From Planctomycetaceae bacterium (GTDB taxonomy: Bacteria > Planctomycetota > Planctomycetia > Pirellulales > Thermoguttaceae): a stretch of DNA of 35,307 nucleotides. The notes beneath the pieces are model-generated. The model was given only the letters and a program-made list of their open reading frames with translations, had not been told where the DNA came from and made no database searches. Shown here piece after piece: positions 3,347-22,424 of the stretch. The position numbers and the translations under genes are program-made. The DNA is taken from contig JAJFUI010000033.1 of the NCBI GenBank assembly GCA_021372555.1, forward strand, positions 1 to 35,307, in the 5' to 3' direction. Positions within the stretch are counted from its first letter, which is position 1. Each line of letters opens with the position of its first letter.

Positions 3347-4789
3347 ATGGCCGGATCACCCGTGTCGAACGATGCCCTTCCAACGCACTGGGACGTGGCG
3401 ATCGTCGGCGCCGGACCGGCCGGCCTCATGGCCGCGGCTCGATCCGCTCAGCGCGGTCGCCGCACCATCCTACTCGACAAAAACGGCGAGCCCGGCGTAA
3501 AGATCCTCATCTCCGGCGGCGCCCGCTGCAATCTCACCCACGCCACCGACGCCCGCGGCATCGTGGCCGCGTTCGGTCCCCCAGGCCGCTTCCTCCATTC
3601 CGCCTTGGCTGCCCTGGGACCGCAGCAGGTCGTCGATCTCTTCGAGGCCGAGGGCGTTCCCACCAAGATCGAACTCGGCGGGAAAGTGTTCCCCGTCAGC
3701 GACCGCGCCGCCGATGTCCGCAACGCTCTTCTGCGCCGCGTCGAACGAGCCGGCTGCACGCTAGCCCTCGGCGAACCGATCGTCGAAATCACCGTTTCGT
3801 CCGATCGTCCGAGCGGCGAGCAAGAGCGCTGCCATGACGATGGCGGGCACGCCCCCAACTTTCGCCTCGTTACGTCCGCTGGCGCCCTCGAAACGGAAAA
3901 GCTTGTTCTCGCCACCGGCGGCCAGTCCTATCCGGCCTGCGGCACCACTGGCGACGGCTACCGCTTCGCCGCCTCGCTGGGCCATCGCATCGTCCCGCCG
4001 CACCCTGCCCTTGTGCCCGTCACCAGTCACGCCCCTTGGGTCCTCGCCCTCCAAGGTATTACGTTGCCGGACGTCCTCGTCCGTGTCGTTGCTCGACCGG
4101 AAGAAAATGTTGGGGCGGCAGTTGAACCGCCGCTCCCGTCGTCGAGAGCCAATGTTGGGGCGGCAGTTGAACTGCCGACCCCATCGCCGAGTTCCAAGGG
4201 TCAGCAGTGCAACTGCAAACCCAACAGCGGTTCGTCACTTGCCACCAGCCGCGGCGCGCTCCTCTTCGCCCACTTTGGCGTCACCGGGCCGGCCGTGCTG
4301 GACGTCAGCCACGCGGTCAGCGCCGCCGCGGAACCCAATTCGCTCGTCTTGCGGTGCGATCTGCTGCCCGATGTCAAGGAAGACGAACTGGAAGCTCGGC
4401 TGGCCGACGCTGCCGCCGCCGACGGCAAACGCCGCGCCGCTGCGCTCCTGCAGCCCTGGCTTCCCCGCCGCGTGGCCGAGACCCTGTTGGAATTGATCGG
4501 CGCGCCCGTGGACCGCACTGCCGCGGAGTTCTCCAAAGCGGAACGTCGCCGCTTAGCGCGAATCGTCAAACAACTTGACATTCCCGCCAGCGGCACGATG
4601 GGCTTCCGCAAGGCCGAAGTCACTGCCGGCGGCGTCTGCCTCGATGAGGTCGATTCCCGCACGATGCAAAGCCGGCTTGTGCCCAATCTGTATTTCGCCG
4701 GCGAACTCTTGGACCTCCACGGCCCCGTCGGCGGTTACAATTTCCAAGCTGCCTTCAGCACCGGCTTCCTCGCCGGCGACAGCGTGTAG
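3347..4789 (+). CDS. HI0933/BaiN-type NAD(P)/FAD-dependent oxidoreductase with in-frame repeat insertion
   Basis: A 480-residue flavoprotein. The Rossmann FAD motif AIVGAGPAGLMAA lies near residue 15, followed by KILISGGARCNLTH, a family hallmark; LVLATGGQSYPACGTTGDGY and the C-terminal GELLDLHGPVGGYNFQAA FAD contact complete the HI0933 (YhiN/BaiN) signature. Characterised relatives reduce unsaturated substrates such as bile-acid intermediates; the substrate here is unknown. Residues about 250-300 are an unusual Pro/Ser-rich insertion containing two copies of NVGAAVE, encoded by a palindromic repeat (see the repeat at 4106). It replaces the short loop that normally precedes the GALLFAHFGVTGPAVL motif. 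GAGG sits 7 nt before ATG 3347. The gene is convergent with the next one. Confidence 0.88.
   Translation: MAGSPVSNDALPTHWDVAIVGAGPAGLMAAARSAQRGRRTILLDKNGEPGVKILISGGARCNLTHATDARGIVAAFGPPGRFLHSALAALGPQQVVDLFEAEGVPTKIELGGKVFPVSDRAADVRNALLRRVERAGCTLALGEPIVEITVSSDRPSGEQERCHDDGGHAPNFRLVTSAGALETEKLVLATGGQSYPACGTTGDGYRFAASLGHRIVPPHPALVPVTSHAPWVLALQGITLPDVLVRVVARPEENVGAAVEPPLPSSRANVGAAVELPTPSPSSKGQQCNCKPNSGSSLATSRGALLFAHFGVTGPAVLDVSHAVSAAAEPNSLVLRCDLLPDVKEDELEARLADAAAADGKRRAAALLQPWLPRRVAETLLELIGAPVDRTAAEFSKAERRRLARIVKQLDIPASGTMGFRKAEVTAGGVCLDEVDSRTMQSRLVPNLYFAGELLDLHGPVGGYNFQAAFSTGFLAGDSV
4106..4183 (+). repeat. Two in-frame copies of a palindromic repeat inside the flavoprotein gene
   Basis: The 22-nt unit AATGTTGGGGCGGCAGTTGAAC occurs at 4106-4127 and 4151-4172, exactly 45 nt (15 codons) apart. 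The second copy folds as GGGG-CGGCAGTT-G-AACTGCCG-A-CCCC (4157-4182), nearly perfect; the first forms the same stem with a central mismatch. Both are read in frame and translate to NVGAAVE. The pattern resembles palindromic elements inserted into coding sequence, as known for Rickettsia RPEs. Whether copies occur elsewhere in the genome cannot be seen here. Confidence 0.8.
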
Positions 4790-4829: not shown

Positions 4830-6236
4830 TCATGCTCCCCGGAACGGCCAACCCACTCGTAGCCAGAGCAGAAATAACCAGGCGGCGATGATCGGAGCGC
4901 TGCAAAGCACGATCGTTGTTAGCGACGACCAAAGCACCACGAATAGTCCAGGCCTAAGCCGGGATTGGTGGGTCAGACACGGGTGCGAAGTCTTCCGCCA
5001 ACCAGAAAACATGCCCTGCACCGAAAGCAGGATTAGCGCAAACGACAGAAAGCCCGCGGGCGTTTCGGCAACGCACCACACGGTTGCCCTCCAGGGATGT
5101 GAACAGTACCATGTTCCAACCAGCCTGCGGACGCCGTAAACGCACTCTGCCAGCGCAACCGCTCCCAAGAACAATATTAGGAGAAGACGCTCGTGGTGAT
5201 ACCGCGTCTCGTCGCCGCGCCACGATGCAACGTCAGCAGCGTGTCCGGTCGTTGGGCACTCCGACCAACGGCGCGCAGCGGGCGTTGCCAGCAGCAACGT
5301 GAGCACAGCGGCCGCAACGAACAAAGGCGGCGACGGCATCGGAATATTCGCCGCCATAATCGGACTGAAACCGGGGACCTCCACCAGCGCAACCCTGCCG
5401 GCTAAGAGCACGGTGGCCGCCAAGCTCGTCATGGAGAGTGTCGCCACGCACACTCGTTGCCATCCCGCCGCGTGCCACCGGTGCGCAAGCAGCCGGACCA
5501 GAAAGCAGCTCATCGCTACCGAAATTACGCCCGCCGTTGCAACGCAAAAGAACCGCATTTCCCGGATGGGACTGGCAGCATCCAAGACCCCCGCCGAATA
5601 GTCCAGCGGCCACGCCATTTGGATGCCCGTGACGACTATGTGCCCGAACGCTGGAACGATCATTTGGTCTAGCAGGAGGATCGTGAAAAGCACTGCCACG
5701 GCGATGCCGCCGAGCAGATCGACGGCCCACGACCACTTGCGCGGCCGGCGCCGTTGGGCCAGACGAGGTGAACTGGCCGCCGCCGTCAAGATCGAAATGA
5801 GCAGCGTTGCATCACATATCTGCCACGACGTAATGACACCTGTTTGCTCCCGTTCGCCCAGACTGAGAAAACCTAGCTCTACGAGCAATTGGAACAGAAA
5901 GTAGATGCCAATCAGACAGCAAATCGCGATTCGCCAAGCGACCGCAAATCGCCAAGCCCAACGCTCCTCGGACGTTGCGTCGTTGGCGCGACGAAACGTT
6001 TGCCAAACGTCCCTCGCTTGTGATGCTAGGCCAAGCACGATCCAAAACGAGATGGCCGCCAGAACGCCAACATACCAATCGTGGCGATCGAGCGCCCACC
6101 ACGCGGAGCGGTCAACCTTGTTCGCCGCCACCAATTGCGCAGCGTGCTCCATTTTCCAAAAGGAAAGTCCGATCGCAACGCTCAGCGTGAAGAGGAGCAG
6201 GCCGCGGAGCGAAAACTGCCAGCGAGAGCTGTTCAT
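4830..6236 (-). CDS. Multi-span membrane protein, function unknown
   Basis: A 468-residue protein with about ten to eleven hydrophobic segments and short polar loops. It opens with MNSSRWQFSLRGLLLFTLSV; a short basic stretch followed by FSLRxLL is very common at the N-terminus of planctomycete membrane proteins of unknown function. No transporter or enzyme motif is recognisable. The frame is open upstream to 6341, but those 35 residues are polar and unlike a membrane protein start, so ATG 6236 is preferred; AGAAG about 8 nt upstream may be a weak ribosome site. It is convergent with the flavoprotein gene (40 nt between stops) and divergent from the dehydrogenase gene. Confidence 0.72.
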   Translation of the reverse strand: MNSSRWQFSLRGLLLFTLSVAIGLSFWKMEHAAQLVAANKVDRSAWWALDRHDWYVGVLAAISFWIVLGLASQARDVWQTFRRANDATSEERWAWRFAVAWRIAICCLIGIYFLFQLLVELGFLSLGEREQTGVITSWQICDATLLISILTAAASSPRLAQRRRPRKWSWAVDLLGGIAVAVLFTILLLDQMIVPAFGHIVVTGIQMAWPLDYSAGVLDAASPIREMRFFCVATAGVISVAMSCFLVRLLAHRWHAAGWQRVCVATLSMTSLAATVLLAGRVALVEVPGFSPIMAANIPMPSPPLFVAAAVLTLLLATPAARRWSECPTTGHAADVASWRGDETRYHHERLLLILFLGAVALAECVYGVRRLVGTWYCSHPWRATVWCVAETPAGFLSFALILLSVQGMFSGWRKTSHPCLTHQSRLRPGLFVVLWSSLTTIVLCSAPIIAAWLFLLWLRVGWPFRGA

Positions 6237-6520
6237 TGCCGTCTTCTCGAAATAGTCTCTGACTCGTCTCCATCCCGCCGCCGTGAGGGGCACGCGTTCT
6301 GAACGGAACGCGGTCCAGCCGGTGCCTCCATCGCTTGCCACACTAACAAGTGGGGTGCCAATCGTCTAGCCGGGCTGGCGATCCGGGTGCCAACGCCGCG
6401 GCCCAAATTGCCCCGCCAAAGAGTGGCCGACGGACCAGCTGGTGGCGGTTAGCCGCGATCGCTTACAACCGGATGCGGCACTTCCCCCCCGGTTTGCCCG
6501 TAAAACCTGGGTAATTGCCA
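6237..6520. other. Divergent intergenic region upstream of the dehydrogenase promoter
   Basis: About 330 nt separate the two divergent starts. The dehydrogenase reading frame is open from a GTG at 6442, but that part has no family similarity and contains the predicted promoter, so I treat it as non-coding. Apart from that promoter (6521-6549) and two short similar runs (GGGTGCCAA near 6353 and 6388), I see no clear gene, terminator or operator. Confidence 0.4.
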
Positions 6521-6549
6521 GTGACAACCCGCTCTACGGCGTTTACAAT
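6521..6549 (+). promoter_or_regulatory. Candidate promoter of the E1/KAS III operon
   Basis: GTGACA (6521-6526) and TACAAT (6544-6549) have a 17-nt spacer and both match sigma-70 consensus well (5/6 each). Predicted transcription start is near 6556, about 12 nt before ATG 6568. This argues against the upstream GTG at 6442 as translation start. Confidence 0.5.
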
Positions 6550-6567
6550 CGCGACCAGTTTGAGCCA

Positions 6568-8754
6568 ATGTCATTGTCTGGCAAGCCACTTGCGCCCCTG
6601 ACACGAAAGGCCCCGTACTTGGCTTCGCAAAAGGACACTCAACCTGCTGGCAAGGCTGCCGGCCGCCACGGTCGCGCGGGCGAACATCCATCCGCCCACG
6701 TCGTGGCCACCGACGTGCCCAGCCCACCGGGCGTCTCCACTCGTAGCGACCACGTCGCTCGCGCCACGCCACAGATTGTCCGCTTTCCCGGCCGGCTCTC
6801 CCAGTCCGAGTTCCTCACGGCGGCCTATCCGCTGATGTTCCTCAGCCGTCGGATGGACGAACGCCTGCTCGAGCTGTTCAAAAAGGGCTACGTCAAAGGA
6901 ACCGTCACCGATGGTTGCGGCAACGAGGCCACCGCCGTCGGAATGACGCTGCCGCTCCGATCGGGCCGAGACGTCGTCTCGATCATGCACCGCGACGTGG
7001 CCGGCCACCTGCTGCTCGGCGCAACGCCGCACCAGATATTCTGCCAGTTCATGGCCAATGCCGAGAGCCCGACGCATGCTCGCGAAGGCAATGCCCACCA
7101 CGGCGACGCCGCGCGGCGACGTTTCCCGATGCTCAGCCATCTTGGCAAGATGCCGAGCCTCGTCGTTGGCGCCACCTGGGCCGCGCGCCGCCAGGGCGAA
7201 GACATCTTCGGCCTCTGCGCCTTCGGGGATGGCGCCAGCAGCACCGGCGAGATCCACGAGTCACTGAATCTCGCCTCGGTGCAAAAGGTTCCCGTGCTGT
7301 TTGTTATCGAGAACAACCACTACTCGTTCTCCACCCCGACCAGCCTCCAGTACCGTTGCCGCCACCTGTCGGACCGTGCCCATGGCTACGGCATCAAAGG
7401 ACAGACAATCAACGGCGCCGATCCGTGGGAGGTCTACTCGACCGTCTGTGACGCGCTCGAGTTGATGCAAGCCACCAGTCTTCCTTACTTGCTCGAATGC
7501 ATGACGCTGCGGCTGCACGGTCATGCCGCCTACGATCGCGGCGAGTACGTGCCGGCCGACGCGATGCGCGAGTGGCAAGCCGCTGACCCGTTGCCGGCCA
7601 CGCGTCGGCAACTGATGGACGTATGCGGCATGTCCGACGCCGCCGTTGCGGCCATCGAACGTGCCGTCGACGAAGAGGTCCGCTCCGCGCTCAACCAGGC
7701 GATGGCCGTCAGCCGGCCCGATCCGCTTAAGAACCGCATGGCCGTGTTCGCCGACTTGTCGCCCACCACGGCCGCGCCCTATCACACGCCGGCCGTGAAG
7801 AACGGCGAAGCGGTCGGCCGGGCGCTCGATTACCTGTTGGAACACAACCCGCAGGCGTTCCTGTTCGGTCTCGACATCGGCGCCTACGGCTCGGCCTTCA
7901 AAACCTGCAAAGGCCTGTTCGAGCGGCACGGGGCCGAACGCGTCCTAGATATGCCGATCTGCGAATCGGCCCAGGTCGGCTTCGCCCTGGGGGCGTCCCA
8001 GACCGGCGGACTGCCGATCATGGAGTTCCAATTCGCCGATTTTTCGACCGAGGTCGCTACGCAGTTGGGCCAGAATGCCAGCACATGGTATTTCCGTGCC
8101 GGCCAGCCCGCGCCGTTGCTCGTCCGTCTGCCGTGCGGCGGCGGCCTGACGATGGGTGCGTTCCACTCCGGCGAGTACGAGGGCCTCTGGTCCCGCTTCC
8201 CCGGCCTCAAGTTGCTCTATCCCGCCACCGCCCAGGAAACGTTCGAAGCCCTGGTCGCTGGCTTCTACGATCCGAATCCCTGCATCGTCTTCGAGCACAA
8301 GCTCCTCTATTGGAGCAAGAGCGGAGAGATCGACTTCGACGGCAATCTGGAATCGATCTGGCGGCCGCGTCGCTATATCGAAGGCAACGAAGTGACCGTC
8401 GTCGCGTTTGGCGCGATGGTCCACGAGTGTCTGGCCGTTGCCGCTCGCAGCCCGCGATCCATCGAGGTCTGGAACCCGTTCGTGCTGCAGCCGCTCGACA
8501 TCGGGCCAATCCTCGAGTCCGTGAGCAAAACCGGCCGCCTGCTCGTCGTGCAAGAGTGTGGCGCGACGCAGGGCCTCGGAGATCAAATCATTTCGGTTGT
8601 TTGCCGCGAGGCGTTCGGTGCGCTCAAGTGCCCGCCGAAGCTCGTGGCCGCGCCCGATCTGCCGATTCCCTTCGCGCCAGAGTTGGAGTCATACTGTCGG
8701 CCCAACGGTCCGCGGATCGAGGCCGCTGTCGATCAAATGGTCCGGGAGGGCTGA
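6568..8754 (+). CDS. Fused alpha/beta E1 component of a 2-oxoacid dehydrogenase (thiamine diphosphate dependent)
   Basis: A 728-residue single chain. After a low-complexity leader of about 80 residues comes the E1-alpha domain, with the thiamine diphosphate/Mg motif GDGASSTGEIHESLNLA...VIENN at about 220-250 and the preceding HRDVAGHLL region. From about residue 400 comes the E1-beta domain (GEAVGRALDYLLEHNP, DMPICESAQVGFALG, MEFQFADF, LVRLPCGGG, then the transketolase C-terminal domain VTVVAFGAMVHECL). E1 decarboxylates a 2-oxoacid and transfers the acyl group to a lipoyl arm. The closest general type is the branched-chain/pyruvate E1; the substrate cannot be told. No E2 acyltransferase or E3 lies nearby; the next gene starts directly after this stop and carries a lipoyl domain on a ketosynthase. 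Confidence 0.9.
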   Translation: MSLSGKPLAPLTRKAPYLASQKDTQPAGKAAGRHGRAGEHPSAHVVATDVPSPPGVSTRSDHVARATPQIVRFPGRLSQSEFLTAAYPLMFLSRRMDERLLELFKKGYVKGTVTDGCGNEATAVGMTLPLRSGRDVVSIMHRDVAGHLLLGATPHQIFCQFMANAESPTHAREGNAHHGDAARRRFPMLSHLGKMPSLVVGATWAARRQGEDIFGLCAFGDGASSTGEIHESLNLASVQKVPVLFVIENNHYSFSTPTSLQYRCRHLSDRAHGYGIKGQTINGADPWEVYSTVCDALELMQATSLPYLLECMTLRLHGHAAYDRGEYVPADAMREWQAADPLPATRRQLMDVCGMSDAAVAAIERAVDEEVRSALNQAMAVSRPDPLKNRMAVFADLSPTTAAPYHTPAVKNGEAVGRALDYLLEHNPQAFLFGLDIGAYGSAFKTCKGLFERHGAERVLDMPICESAQVGFALGASQTGGLPIMEFQFADFSTEVATQLGQNASTWYFRAGQPAPLLVRLPCGGGLTMGAFHSGEYEGLWSRFPGLKLLYPATAQETFEALVAGFYDPNPCIVFEHKLLYWSKSGEIDFDGNLESIWRPRRYIEGNEVTVVAFGAMVHECLAVAARSPRSIEVWNPFVLQPLDIGPILESVSKTGRLLVVQECGATQGLGDQIISVVCREAFGALKCPPKLVAAPDLPIPFAPELESYCRPNGPRIEAAVDQMVREG

Positions 8755-10083
8755 GTGGACGCTACGTCGTTTAAAATGCCGCTGTATTTGCCGGCGCAAG
8801 GCGCCTCGGAAATCGAAGCCACCATCATCGAGTGGCACGTCGCCGAGGGCGACCGCTTTACCAAAGGGCAATCGCTCGTCCAAATCGACAGCGCCAAGTC
8901 GGTCTACGATTTTGAGGCCCCCTGCGATGGATTGGTGATTCGACGCTTGCATCTCGAAGGGGAAACACTCCCATTGGCTGAACCAATCGTGGAAATCGAA
9001 ACGGAAGACCCGGCCATGCGCGACTGGATCCCACCCGCCGCGGCCGCCGAGCATTCGGGCGCCTGCATCGAATCGGCTCCCGCTGTCTTGCCCGCCAGTC
9101 GCATGGGCACGGCCGTTGGCTTTCTAGGCTTCGGCGGCTATCTGCCCGAACGAGTCGTGACCAATGAGGAATTGGTCGCCGAGTTTCCGGAAATCACCGC
9201 CGAGTACATTTACCAAGTCACCGGAATCCGCCAGCGTCGCTGGGCCGCGGACGATGAAAAGCCTTCCGCGATGGCCTACCAGGCCGCGCTCGAAGCAATC
9301 CGCAAGGCCTCCGTCGCCGCCAAGGACATTGACGCCCTGGTCGTGGCCACCACCACCCCCGACTTTGCGATGCCCTCGACGGCCGCCATCCTCCAAGATC
9401 GGCTCAACCTGCAAACCATTCCCGGCTTCGATCTCAACGCCGCCTGCTCCGGCTGGCTATACGCAGTGTCCGCGGCCAAGGGACTGATCCTGTCCGGCAT
9501 CGCTCGCAATGTCCTAACGGTCGGCGTTGATATGCAATCCCGCCTGCTCGACAAGTCGGACCGCAGCGCTTACTTCCTCTTCGGCGACGGCGCTGGCGCG
9601 GCCATCGTCTCGGCACTGCCGGAAGGCGCCCCAGGCCATCGCATTCACCAGGTGGTGCTTGGTTCCGACACCCGCGGCCTTCACATGGCACGTCGCTGCG
9701 AGCCCGGCTACGCGATACGCAATGGCCAAGCCGGCATCGACCCGTGGATTCGCATCGATGGCCCCGCGCTGTTCCGCTGCGCCACCGAGAGCTTCACGAA
9801 CATCATCGGCCAGGCGATCAGTCGCAGCGGCTGGACCATCGAGCAGACCCGTTGGATCATCCCGCATCAGGCGAACGGCCGCATTTTGAAAGCCGCCGCC
9901 AAACGGAGCGGTGTCGGCTTCGACCGTTTCTATCTCAACGTCGATCACGTCGGCAACACATCGAGTGCCAGCATTCCCATCGCCATCTGCGAAATGGAAG
10001 ACGGCCTGCAATCCGGTGACAAACTGGTCCTCTGCTCCGTCGGCGCCGGAATGACCACCGCCGCCATCTCGGTCGAATGGTAA
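8755..10083 (+). CDS. Lipoyl-domain/KAS III fusion (beta-ketoacyl synthase III)
   Basis: A 442-residue fusion. Residues 1-80 form a biotinyl/lipoyl domain (FKMPLYLPAQG, EWHVAEGD, then QIDSAKSVYDFEAP) with the attachment lysine at K48. A linker rich in Ala and Pro follows. Residues about 117-442 are a complete KAS III (FabH-like) domain: Cys231 in DLNAACSGW, His371 in IPHQAN and Asn401 in GNTSSAS form the usual Cys-His-Asn triad, and FGDGAGAAI is present. KAS III condenses an acyl thioester with malonyl-ACP. GTG 8755 directly abuts the TGA of the E1 gene, with GGGAGG 5 nt upstream; this start is needed to include the FKMP opening of the lipoyl fold. The pairing suggests acyl transfer from E1 to the lipoyl arm and then to the ketosynthase cysteine. 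Confidence 0.92.
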   Translation: MDATSFKMPLYLPAQGASEIEATIIEWHVAEGDRFTKGQSLVQIDSAKSVYDFEAPCDGLVIRRLHLEGETLPLAEPIVEIETEDPAMRDWIPPAAAAEHSGACIESAPAVLPASRMGTAVGFLGFGGYLPERVVTNEELVAEFPEITAEYIYQVTGIRQRRWAADDEKPSAMAYQAALEAIRKASVAAKDIDALVVATTTPDFAMPSTAAILQDRLNLQTIPGFDLNAACSGWLYAVSAAKGLILSGIARNVLTVGVDMQSRLLDKSDRSAYFLFGDGAGAAIVSALPEGAPGHRIHQVVLGSDTRGLHMARRCEPGYAIRNGQAGIDPWIRIDGPALFRCATESFTNIIGQAISRSGWTIEQTRWIIPHQANGRILKAAAKRSGVGFDRFYLNVDHVGNTSSASIPIAICEMEDGLQSGDKLVLCSVGAGMTTAAISVEW

Positions 10084-21100: not shown

Positions 21101-21149
21101 CCTTTCGTGTCAATCTGCCGTGGGGCATCGGCCGCGCAATCCCTGTCGC

Positions 21150-21178
21150 TTGCCGCGCGCGGAACGAACCCGTATCAT
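21150..21178 (+). promoter_or_regulatory. Candidate promoter giving a leaderless mRNA
   Basis: TTGCCG (21150-21155) and TATCAT (21173-21178) have a 17-nt spacer. Transcription should start near 21185, at or next to ATG 21186, which has no Shine-Dalgarno. The downstream gene may therefore be translated from a leaderless transcript. Confidence 0.45.
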
Positions 21179-21185
21179 TAGCCCC

Positions 21186-22424
21186 ATGGATGCACACACC
21201 CCTCGCCGAGTGATCGAAGTCAATCAGCGGGTTGTCGGACCTGTGCCCCCGCGTGGCAACACCGTTCGGGCACGCCGACTAAGCGACTATCCCCACGTGC
21301 CCGCCGCCTTCCGCGACGTCGCCCAGCGGCTTTCTAGCCCGCTGCGGATGGGACCACCCATCTGCGACGAGCTAATGGCCCTGGTGCAACACCTGTTCAC
21401 CGAGGAAGAGGCTGGCGTCGTTCGGCATCTCCGCTTGTACGGAGGCCGCCGAGCCTCCGACCTCGCCCGCGCCGAACACCGTCCGCTCGATCAGGTCGCC
21501 CCAATCCTACACCGGTTGGCCGAGGAGAAGCGGATCATCGCGGCCGGCGGCCCCCAGGACGATCGAAAGTATCGGCTGCTCCCGATCGTCCCGGGCATCT
21601 TCGAAATGTGTCTGATTAGCCACACGCCCGAGTCTCTTACCGATTGGCATCGCCGTTTCATCGAGCTCTTCGAAGCGCTTTATGCGACCGGCTATTCCCT
21701 GGACTACAGCGCTGGCGCCACCCCGTTTGTGCGCTACCTGCCGGTGGAAAAGGCGATCGAGGCCCACCCGATGGCCCTCCCTTCCGACAAACTCGAACTG
21801 GTGCTCGACCGGTACGACGCGTTCGGGGTCGGCCAGTGCCAGTGCCGGATGGCCATGCAAGCCATTGGCCAAGGCTGCGGCAAGCCGTTGGGAAACTGCA
21901 CCATCATGGGCGAGTGGGCCGAACGCGGCATCGAAGAAGGCATGCTCCGACGAGTGACCAAGAAACAGGCCCTCGAGATCAAACGCGAAGCCGAGTCGCA
22001 CGGACTGGTCAATTGGATGATGAACGTCGAATCGCCGCGGGGGCAATCGTCGTGCTCCTGTTGCGGTTGCTGTTGCCACGCGCTCCGCGGCGTCAACGAG
22101 TTCAACGCCCCTGGCTTCATCGCCCCGCCTCACTTCCTGCCTCGCCTCGAAAAAGAAAAATGCGTGTCCTGCGGCCGTTGCGCCACCAATTGCCCGATGG
22201 GCGCCATCGTCGTCGATACCGAGAAAAAGACTTTCCGCCACCTCGTCGAGCGCTGCATCGGTTGCGGTTTGTGCGTGTTGGCGTGCGACCGCCAACGGGC
22301 GCTCCGCATGGAGCCTGTGCCCGAGCACCGTCTTCCCTATCGAAGTTGGTTTTCGCTGATCGCCCACACCACACCCACGACGTTGCTAACCTCGTGGAAG
22401 GTTTGGCGCAAACGGCGTTCGTAG
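21186..22424 (+). CDS. Winged-helix/2x[4Fe-4S] ferredoxin fusion protein
   Basis: A 412-residue cytosolic protein. Residues about 45-140 look like a winged-helix domain (MALVQHLFTEEEAGVVRHL, ASDLARAEHRPLDQVAPILHRLAEEKRI). A middle domain has an unusual cysteine set, CQCRMAMQAIGQGCGKPLGNC near residue 220 and SCSCCGCCCHAL near residue 290. The C-terminal part carries two [4Fe-4S] ferredoxin motifs: CVSCGRCATNCPMGA and CIGCGLCVLACDRQRAL; the second has Asp where Pro usually follows the fourth Cys. It could be a redox carrier or an Fe-S-sensing regulator. ATG 21186 was chosen because a promoter lies just upstream and the extension to 21120 has no family features. Confidence 0.8.
   Translation: MDAHTPRRVIEVNQRVVGPVPPRGNTVRARRLSDYPHVPAAFRDVAQRLSSPLRMGPPICDELMALVQHLFTEEEAGVVRHLRLYGGRRASDLARAEHRPLDQVAPILHRLAEEKRIIAAGGPQDDRKYRLLPIVPGIFEMCLISHTPESLTDWHRRFIELFEALYATGYSLDYSAGATPFVRYLPVEKAIEAHPMALPSDKLELVLDRYDAFGVGQCQCRMAMQAIGQGCGKPLGNCTIMGEWAERGIEEGMLRRVTKKQALEIKREAESHGLVNWMMNVESPRGQSSCSCCGCCCHALRGVNEFNAPGFIAPPHFLPRLEKEKCVSCGRCATNCPMGAIVVDTEKKTFRHLVERCIGCGLCVLACDRQRALRMEPVPEHRLPYRSWFSLIAHTTPTTLLTSWKVWRKRRS

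Follow-up and report, generated by a model that had tools for sequence, protein, structure and literature searches.

The window analysed here is a 35,307-nucleotide contig (JAJFUI010000033.1, assembly GCA_021372555.1) of a Planctomycetaceae bacterium and belongs to a draft genome of 4.05 Mb with a completeness of 93.7% (G000). It carries two abutting genes. The first encodes a 2-oxoacid dehydrogenase E1 with α and β parts in one chain and the second a lipoyl domain fused to a β-ketoacyl-acyl carrier protein synthase III (KAS III), hereafter LK. This pair is probably a 2-oxoacid dehydrogenase which dispenses with the E2 acyltransferase and ends in a carbon–carbon bond, the lipoyl arm loading KAS III directly and no free acyl-coenzyme A (acyl-CoA) being formed. 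Such a direct route was put forward in the original prediction, which was made from the DNA letters. It is now supported by a relative in which all domains form one chain, by an E1 without E2 co-inherited with a lipoyl-linked KAS III in Opitutales, by pair-bearing genomes in which no E2 was detected and by the loss of CoA-binding residues.

In the proposed route, the fused E1 would use thiamine diphosphate (ThDP) to decarboxylate a 2-oxoacid and would reductively acylate a lipoyl group on K48 of LK. The acyl-dihydrolipoyl arm would then swing into the adjoining KAS III and hand the acyl group to C231, where condensation with malonyl-acyl carrier protein (malonyl-ACP) would yield a β-ketoacyl-ACP for fatty acid (or polyketide) synthesis. 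The substrates are most likely branched-chain 2-oxoacids, which would give iso and anteiso primers. Re-oxidation of the arm would fall to a shared E3. The prediction had called for an E3 or another oxidant from elsewhere; an E3 gene exists in the genome, on contig C248, where it adjoins a gene for a pyruvate dehydrogenase (PDH)-like E2. We infer each of these steps, from K48 lipoylation through E1 acylation, dihydrolipoyl-to-C231 transfer and malonyl-ACP condensation to the substrate and the use of E3.

Judged from sequence, both enzymes look catalytically intact and co-inherited, and the ketosynthase has lost its CoA contacts. The claim that one chain holds E1 α and β is borne out by three Pfam matches within a single open reading frame (E1_dh, 3.5e-54; Transket_pyr, 3.5e-27; Transketolase_C, 6e-23). 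The ThDP motif, the α histidine loop, the β glutamate and the β histidine are all conserved in the E1 alignment; the window E1 thus has the ThDP-binding and catalytic residues of a 2-oxoacid dehydrogenase. As the orthologues measure about 704–734 residues, ATG 6568 is a likelier start than GTG 6442; the exact codon is uncertain and lies near 6568–6628. The E1 stop (TGA 8752–8754) is directly followed by the LK start (GTG 8755), with a good ribosome-binding site just ahead, as had been noted.

LK matches Biotin_lipoyl at residues 12–81 (6.8e-9), ACP_syn_III (3.3e-23) and ACP_syn_III_C (2.1e-25). The four residues picked out earlier, K48 of the lipoyl domain and C231, H371 and N401 of KAS III, are invariant across 15 orthologues. 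The predicted structure (mean predicted local distance difference test score, pLDDT, 79.7) comprises a lipoyl domain, a low-confidence linker and a KAS III domain, and its best fold matches in the Protein Data Bank are FabH structures. The second domain thus combines the thiolase fold with the Cys-His-Asn triad, and the first offers an acceptor lysine whose lipoylation is predicted. The Pfam scan found neither an E2 acyltransferase domain (PF00198) in LK nor an acyl carrier protein domain in either window protein. It is most improbable that the lipoyl domain is vestigial or biotin-bearing and that KAS III acts by itself with a different acyl donor: K48 is invariant, relatives carry a peripheral subunit-binding domain (PSBD), and the genome encodes LipA and a LipB-like protein, besides a PDH-like E1 α. 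A biotin carrier was likewise rejected as the identity of the first domain, since the N-terminal NCBIfam matches listed are E2 lipoyl domains and none is a biotin carrier. Beside LipA and near the LipB-like gene lies a further gene (contig C333, L043:6126–6410, minus strand) for a 94-residue lipoyl-like protein; it looks unable to carry lipoate because its modification turn, VMAGPATVD, has no lysine.

The prediction supposed that the two genes are conserved together, and they are. Of 24 more genomes from this Pirellulales-type family, 14 contain LK (52–74% identity), and in a fifteenth, G011, it is cut by the contig end within the lipoyl domain. The fused E1 lies immediately upstream in all 15, which makes 16 loci with the window. 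In one of them, G018 (C356, L035, about 3800–4230), a frameshift or an assembly error interrupts the E1 frame inside the β part. A sample of 392 genomes of the phylum, searched at a cut-off of 1e-75, matched members of the same family only, so that close orthologues are family-restricted there; fusions of the more distant kind described below would be missed at that cut-off. In a scan of GTDB genomes, relatives appeared in Pirellulales metagenome-assembled genomes, Fibrobacterota and the verrucomicrobial order Opitutales. The Fibrobacterota proteins (Chitinispirillum, Chitinivibrionales) share 53–56% identity with the window LK, and wherever the contig extends far enough (L098, L101) the fused E1 gene directly precedes theirs; those of Opitutales, including the isolate Pelagicoccus sp. 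SDUM812002, share 34–40%. The two-gene unit occurs in bacteria of three phyla. Since it is found again in all relatives whose contigs extend far enough around the locus, the pairing of E1 with lipoyl-KAS III is not due to chance. Apart from E1 and LK, the most widely conserved neighbour is present at five of the 16 loci and is a group of overlapping antisense reading frames, and the unit accordingly looks self-contained; an E2 was not found as a conserved neighbour at these loci.

Two other layouts were observed. In G029, from another family of the same order, a single chain of 1207 residues joins E1 α, E1 β, lipoyl domain and KAS III, with every domain above its Pfam cut-off, the lipoyl lysine in EATKSV and the KAS III triad retained. 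As this protein falls outside the clades of the pair on long branches in both trees, it may be an independent fusion. Its gene (L021:6967–10590, minus strand) adjoins apparent transposase fragments at 5507–6879, identified by eye, which suggests acquisition or mobility. A tblastn search of plasmids with the G029 lipoyl-KAS III part returned KAS III-type matches only, the lipoyl part never being covered. The same search with E1 returned split or fused E1s, two annotated ones being followed by a normal E2.

In Opitutales, the linker between lipoyl domain and KAS III carries a PSBD (PF02817), above cut-off in five of six scanned proteins and just below it in the sixth; we call this lipoyl-PSBD-KAS III form LPK. 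Some members have lipoyl-PSBD and KAS III as adjacent separate genes. In its domain order, LPK corresponds to an E2 whose catalytic domain has been replaced by KAS III.

The E2 content of the six LPK-bearing Opitutales genomes argues in the same direction. Their 12 E2 catalytic domains serve PDH and 2-oxoglutarate dehydrogenase (OGDH) only: 11 have a PDH or SucA-type E1 at a distance of 2–3 kb, while the remaining one, which belongs to G432, stands at a contig end, as does the PDH E1 of that genome, so that its PDH assignment rests on contig ends. Five of the six genomes have a third, fused α–β E1 without an E2, which shares 41–45% identity with the window E1 (25–33% for their PDH E1s); a third E1, less closely checked, is also present in the sixth, G431. 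In the E1 β tree, these orphan E1s group with the E1s paired with LK in a single clade (SH-aLRT 99), separate from the E1s that serve an E2. A combined query of 141 genomes of the class, which scored four candidates per genome and whose absences are therefore weak, found the orphan E1 in 13 genomes and LPK in nine, all nine with the E1. Calls of E1 β fused to lipoyl-PSBD in the same query (about 35%, with stops inside) were rejected as probable read-through of ordinary E1–E2 operons. Beyond Opitutales, no E2 catalytic domain was detected in the pair-bearing genomes G014, G010 and G433 (Chitinispirillum).

A second line of evidence comes from the KAS III domain. In FabH, Thr28, Trp32 and Arg151 hold the CoA adenine and Arg36 holds the phosphopantetheine (PMC4606726). 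Both Trp32 and Arg36 are lost in all 35 lipoyl-linked KAS III copies (22 LK and 13 from Opitutales). The replacements are Tyr and Val in 22/22 LK domains, and Glu and Leu, Val or Ile in the Opitutales copies, where Arg151 has become His or Phe; the latter set includes the free-standing KAS III encoded beside lipoyl-PSBD genes. The same scan also recovered 60 ordinary FabH proteins, and these have Trp32, Arg/His36 and Arg/Lys151 in 60/60 each. They were picked by one short motif around Cys112 and one around His244 and are thus canonical by selection, but not by the positions compared. A separate set of planctomycete KAS III proteins with Arg249 has Arg, Lys or His at position 36 in 32/32. Retained in the lipoyl-linked domains are the triad, Asn247 and Arg249, Lys256 and Lys/Arg257; Arg249 and Lys256/257 we take to be ACP-docking residues. 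To judge from these residues, the lipoyl-linked KAS III has lost canonical CoA binding and keeps what is needed for catalysis with ACP, a pattern which matches the proposed route.

Several observations weigh against this reading. LPK and the orphan E1 are mostly unlinked in Opitutales, lying at distant chromosomal sites or on different contigs, and four of the 13 genomes with the orphan E1 had no LPK match, although a miss is possible with four candidates scored per genome. The genomes G014, G010 and G433 are drafts, so that the absence of E2 is no proof, and the Pfam scan found no PSBD in the window LK, whereas Opitutales relatives carry one. Arg151 is kept in 14 of 22 LK sequences (not in LPK) and some CoA contact may persist; moreover, loss of the CoA residues suits any non-CoA donor, such as acyl-ACP. 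Finally, an ordinary FabH persists alongside LK in several genomes. One lies in G010, where a canonical FabH with Trp32 and Arg36 (L022:11831–12931) is encoded about 1.3 kb downstream of LK; this arrangement was seen in that genome only.

The window's genome also has one PDH-like E2, and a conventional E2 elsewhere, or transfer from lipoyl to CoA, could make acyl-CoA for KAS III, the fusion merely bringing the enzymes together. Branched-chain priming in Gram-positive bacteria indeed proceeds from Bkd through acyl-CoA to FabH (PMC6461809). Such a scheme is nevertheless unlikely here, given the uniform loss of Trp32 and Arg36, the three pair-bearing genomes without a detected E2 and the placement of the Opitutales PDH and OGDH E2s with their own E1s, bar the contig-end case.

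As to the substrate of the direct route, branched-chain 2-oxoacids are favoured over pyruvate. The E1 α domain is nearer to human branched-chain 2-oxoacid dehydrogenase (BCKDH, 1e-34) than to PDH (7e-20), and position 87 of the lipoyl-linked KAS III is Met or Val where many FabH have Phe. In addition, Opitutales contain iso-C14:0, iso-C15:0 and anteiso-C15:0 (PMC10288369, PMC5303756, PMC13274419), and no leftover E2 for a branched-chain complex was found in the sampled Opitutales genomes; the fatty acid data, however, come from species other than the six genomes. With pyruvate, the arm would be loaded in the same way and acetoacetyl-ACP would be made, a straight-chain start free of acetyl-CoA. 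This variant differs in substrate only and is somewhat unlikely. E1 β is nearest to proteins named PDH, and the KAS III homologues inspected in G000, G002 and G014 included no FabH with Trp32, Arg36 and Arg249, but an ordinary FabH is present in all six Opitutales and both Fibrobacterota genomes sampled. Besides LK, the draft genome of the window encodes four KAS III-like proteins (contigs C208, C333, C217 and C193), all without the FabH Arg249, which leaves LK as the one ACP-type KAS III detected there.

The nearest functional analogue, likened here by its description in papers rather than by sequence, is Photorhabdus BkdABC, encoded by a branched-chain ketoacid dehydrogenase operon, in which 2-oxoacid decarboxylation is likewise coupled to condensation. 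Its carrier is described as an ACP domain in BkdB that needs a phosphopantetheinyl transferase, whereas in the window pair a lipoyl domain joined to KAS III takes this place. Stilbenes, photopyrones and iso-fatty acids are all made with units supplied by BkdABC (PMC3838401, PMC4578411), and by analogy the product of the pair might prime a secondary metabolite and not membrane lipids. This is quite unlikely, as no further neighbour is widely conserved around the pair and as LPK and the orphan E1 mostly lie apart in Opitutales genomes, unlike the genes of a biosynthetic cluster.

With the PDH and BCKDH complexes the pair shares the ThDP-dependent E1, the lipoyl domain with conserved lysine and, in the Opitutales form, the PSBD, but KAS III stands in the place of the E2 acyltransferase. 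LK has the fold, triad and ACP-docking residues of FabH, including branched-chain FabH, and differs by the lost CoA-binding residues, the N-terminal lipoyl domain and the partner E1. To our knowledge, a lipoyl arm serves as acyl donor to no characterised ketosynthase. A precedent for rearranged 2-oxoacid dehydrogenase domains is the actinobacterial two-in-one E1–E2 protein OdhA (PMC10415282); it keeps a succinyl transferase step and so ends in acyl-CoA, as the pair would not. The open-access literature searched gave no account of a lipoyl-ketosynthase fusion, which is no proof of absence. What appears new here is a 2-oxoacid dehydrogenase complex with E2 activity replaced by KAS III. We lean towards a new branch of this enzyme family, spread over three phyla in at least two layouts, in which KAS III replaces the transacylase, acyl-dihydrolipoyl is the direct donor and branched-chain synthesis starts without acyl-CoA. 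If so, the lipoyl arm would give the acyl group to a ketosynthase in place of CoA. This would suggest how Opitutales that lack a branched-chain E2 may form their iso and anteiso chains, and the engineering of branched products would gain a CoA-independent module that is ready for use.

Table 1. Features of the two-gene unit, in window coordinates
Feature	Position	Strand	Details
Fused E1 α–β 2-oxoacid dehydrogenase	6442..8754	+	770 aa from farthest GTG 6442; 728 aa from ATG 6568
E1 α domain	6835..7719	+	PF00676, residues 132-426; ThDP motif GDG...NN, His loop RLHGHAAYD (alignment)
E1 β domain	7801..8718	+	PF02779 Transket_pyr / PF02780 Transketolase_C; conserved Glu in PICES, FHS motif
Ribosome-binding site GGGAGG	8744..8749	+	read directly, just ahead of TGA/GTG junction
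Lipoyl domain-KAS III fusion (LK)	8755..10083	+	442 aa; open reading frame, Pfam and NCBIfam
Lipoyl domain	8788..8997	+	PF00364; K48 codon 8896-8898 within DSAKS turn
Linker, short, probably flexible	9013..9108	+	pLDDT <50 at residues 96-117
KAS III domain	9112..10080	+	C231 9445-9447, H371 9865-9867, N401 9955-9957
Counterparts of FabH Trp32 and Arg36 in LK	Y151 9205-9207; V155 9217-9219	+	alignment

Elsewhere in the window, positions 21120–22424 (plus strand) encode a 434-residue protein that, over its C-terminal part, gives matches to RnfB/PorD-type 2[4Fe-4S] ferredoxin domains.

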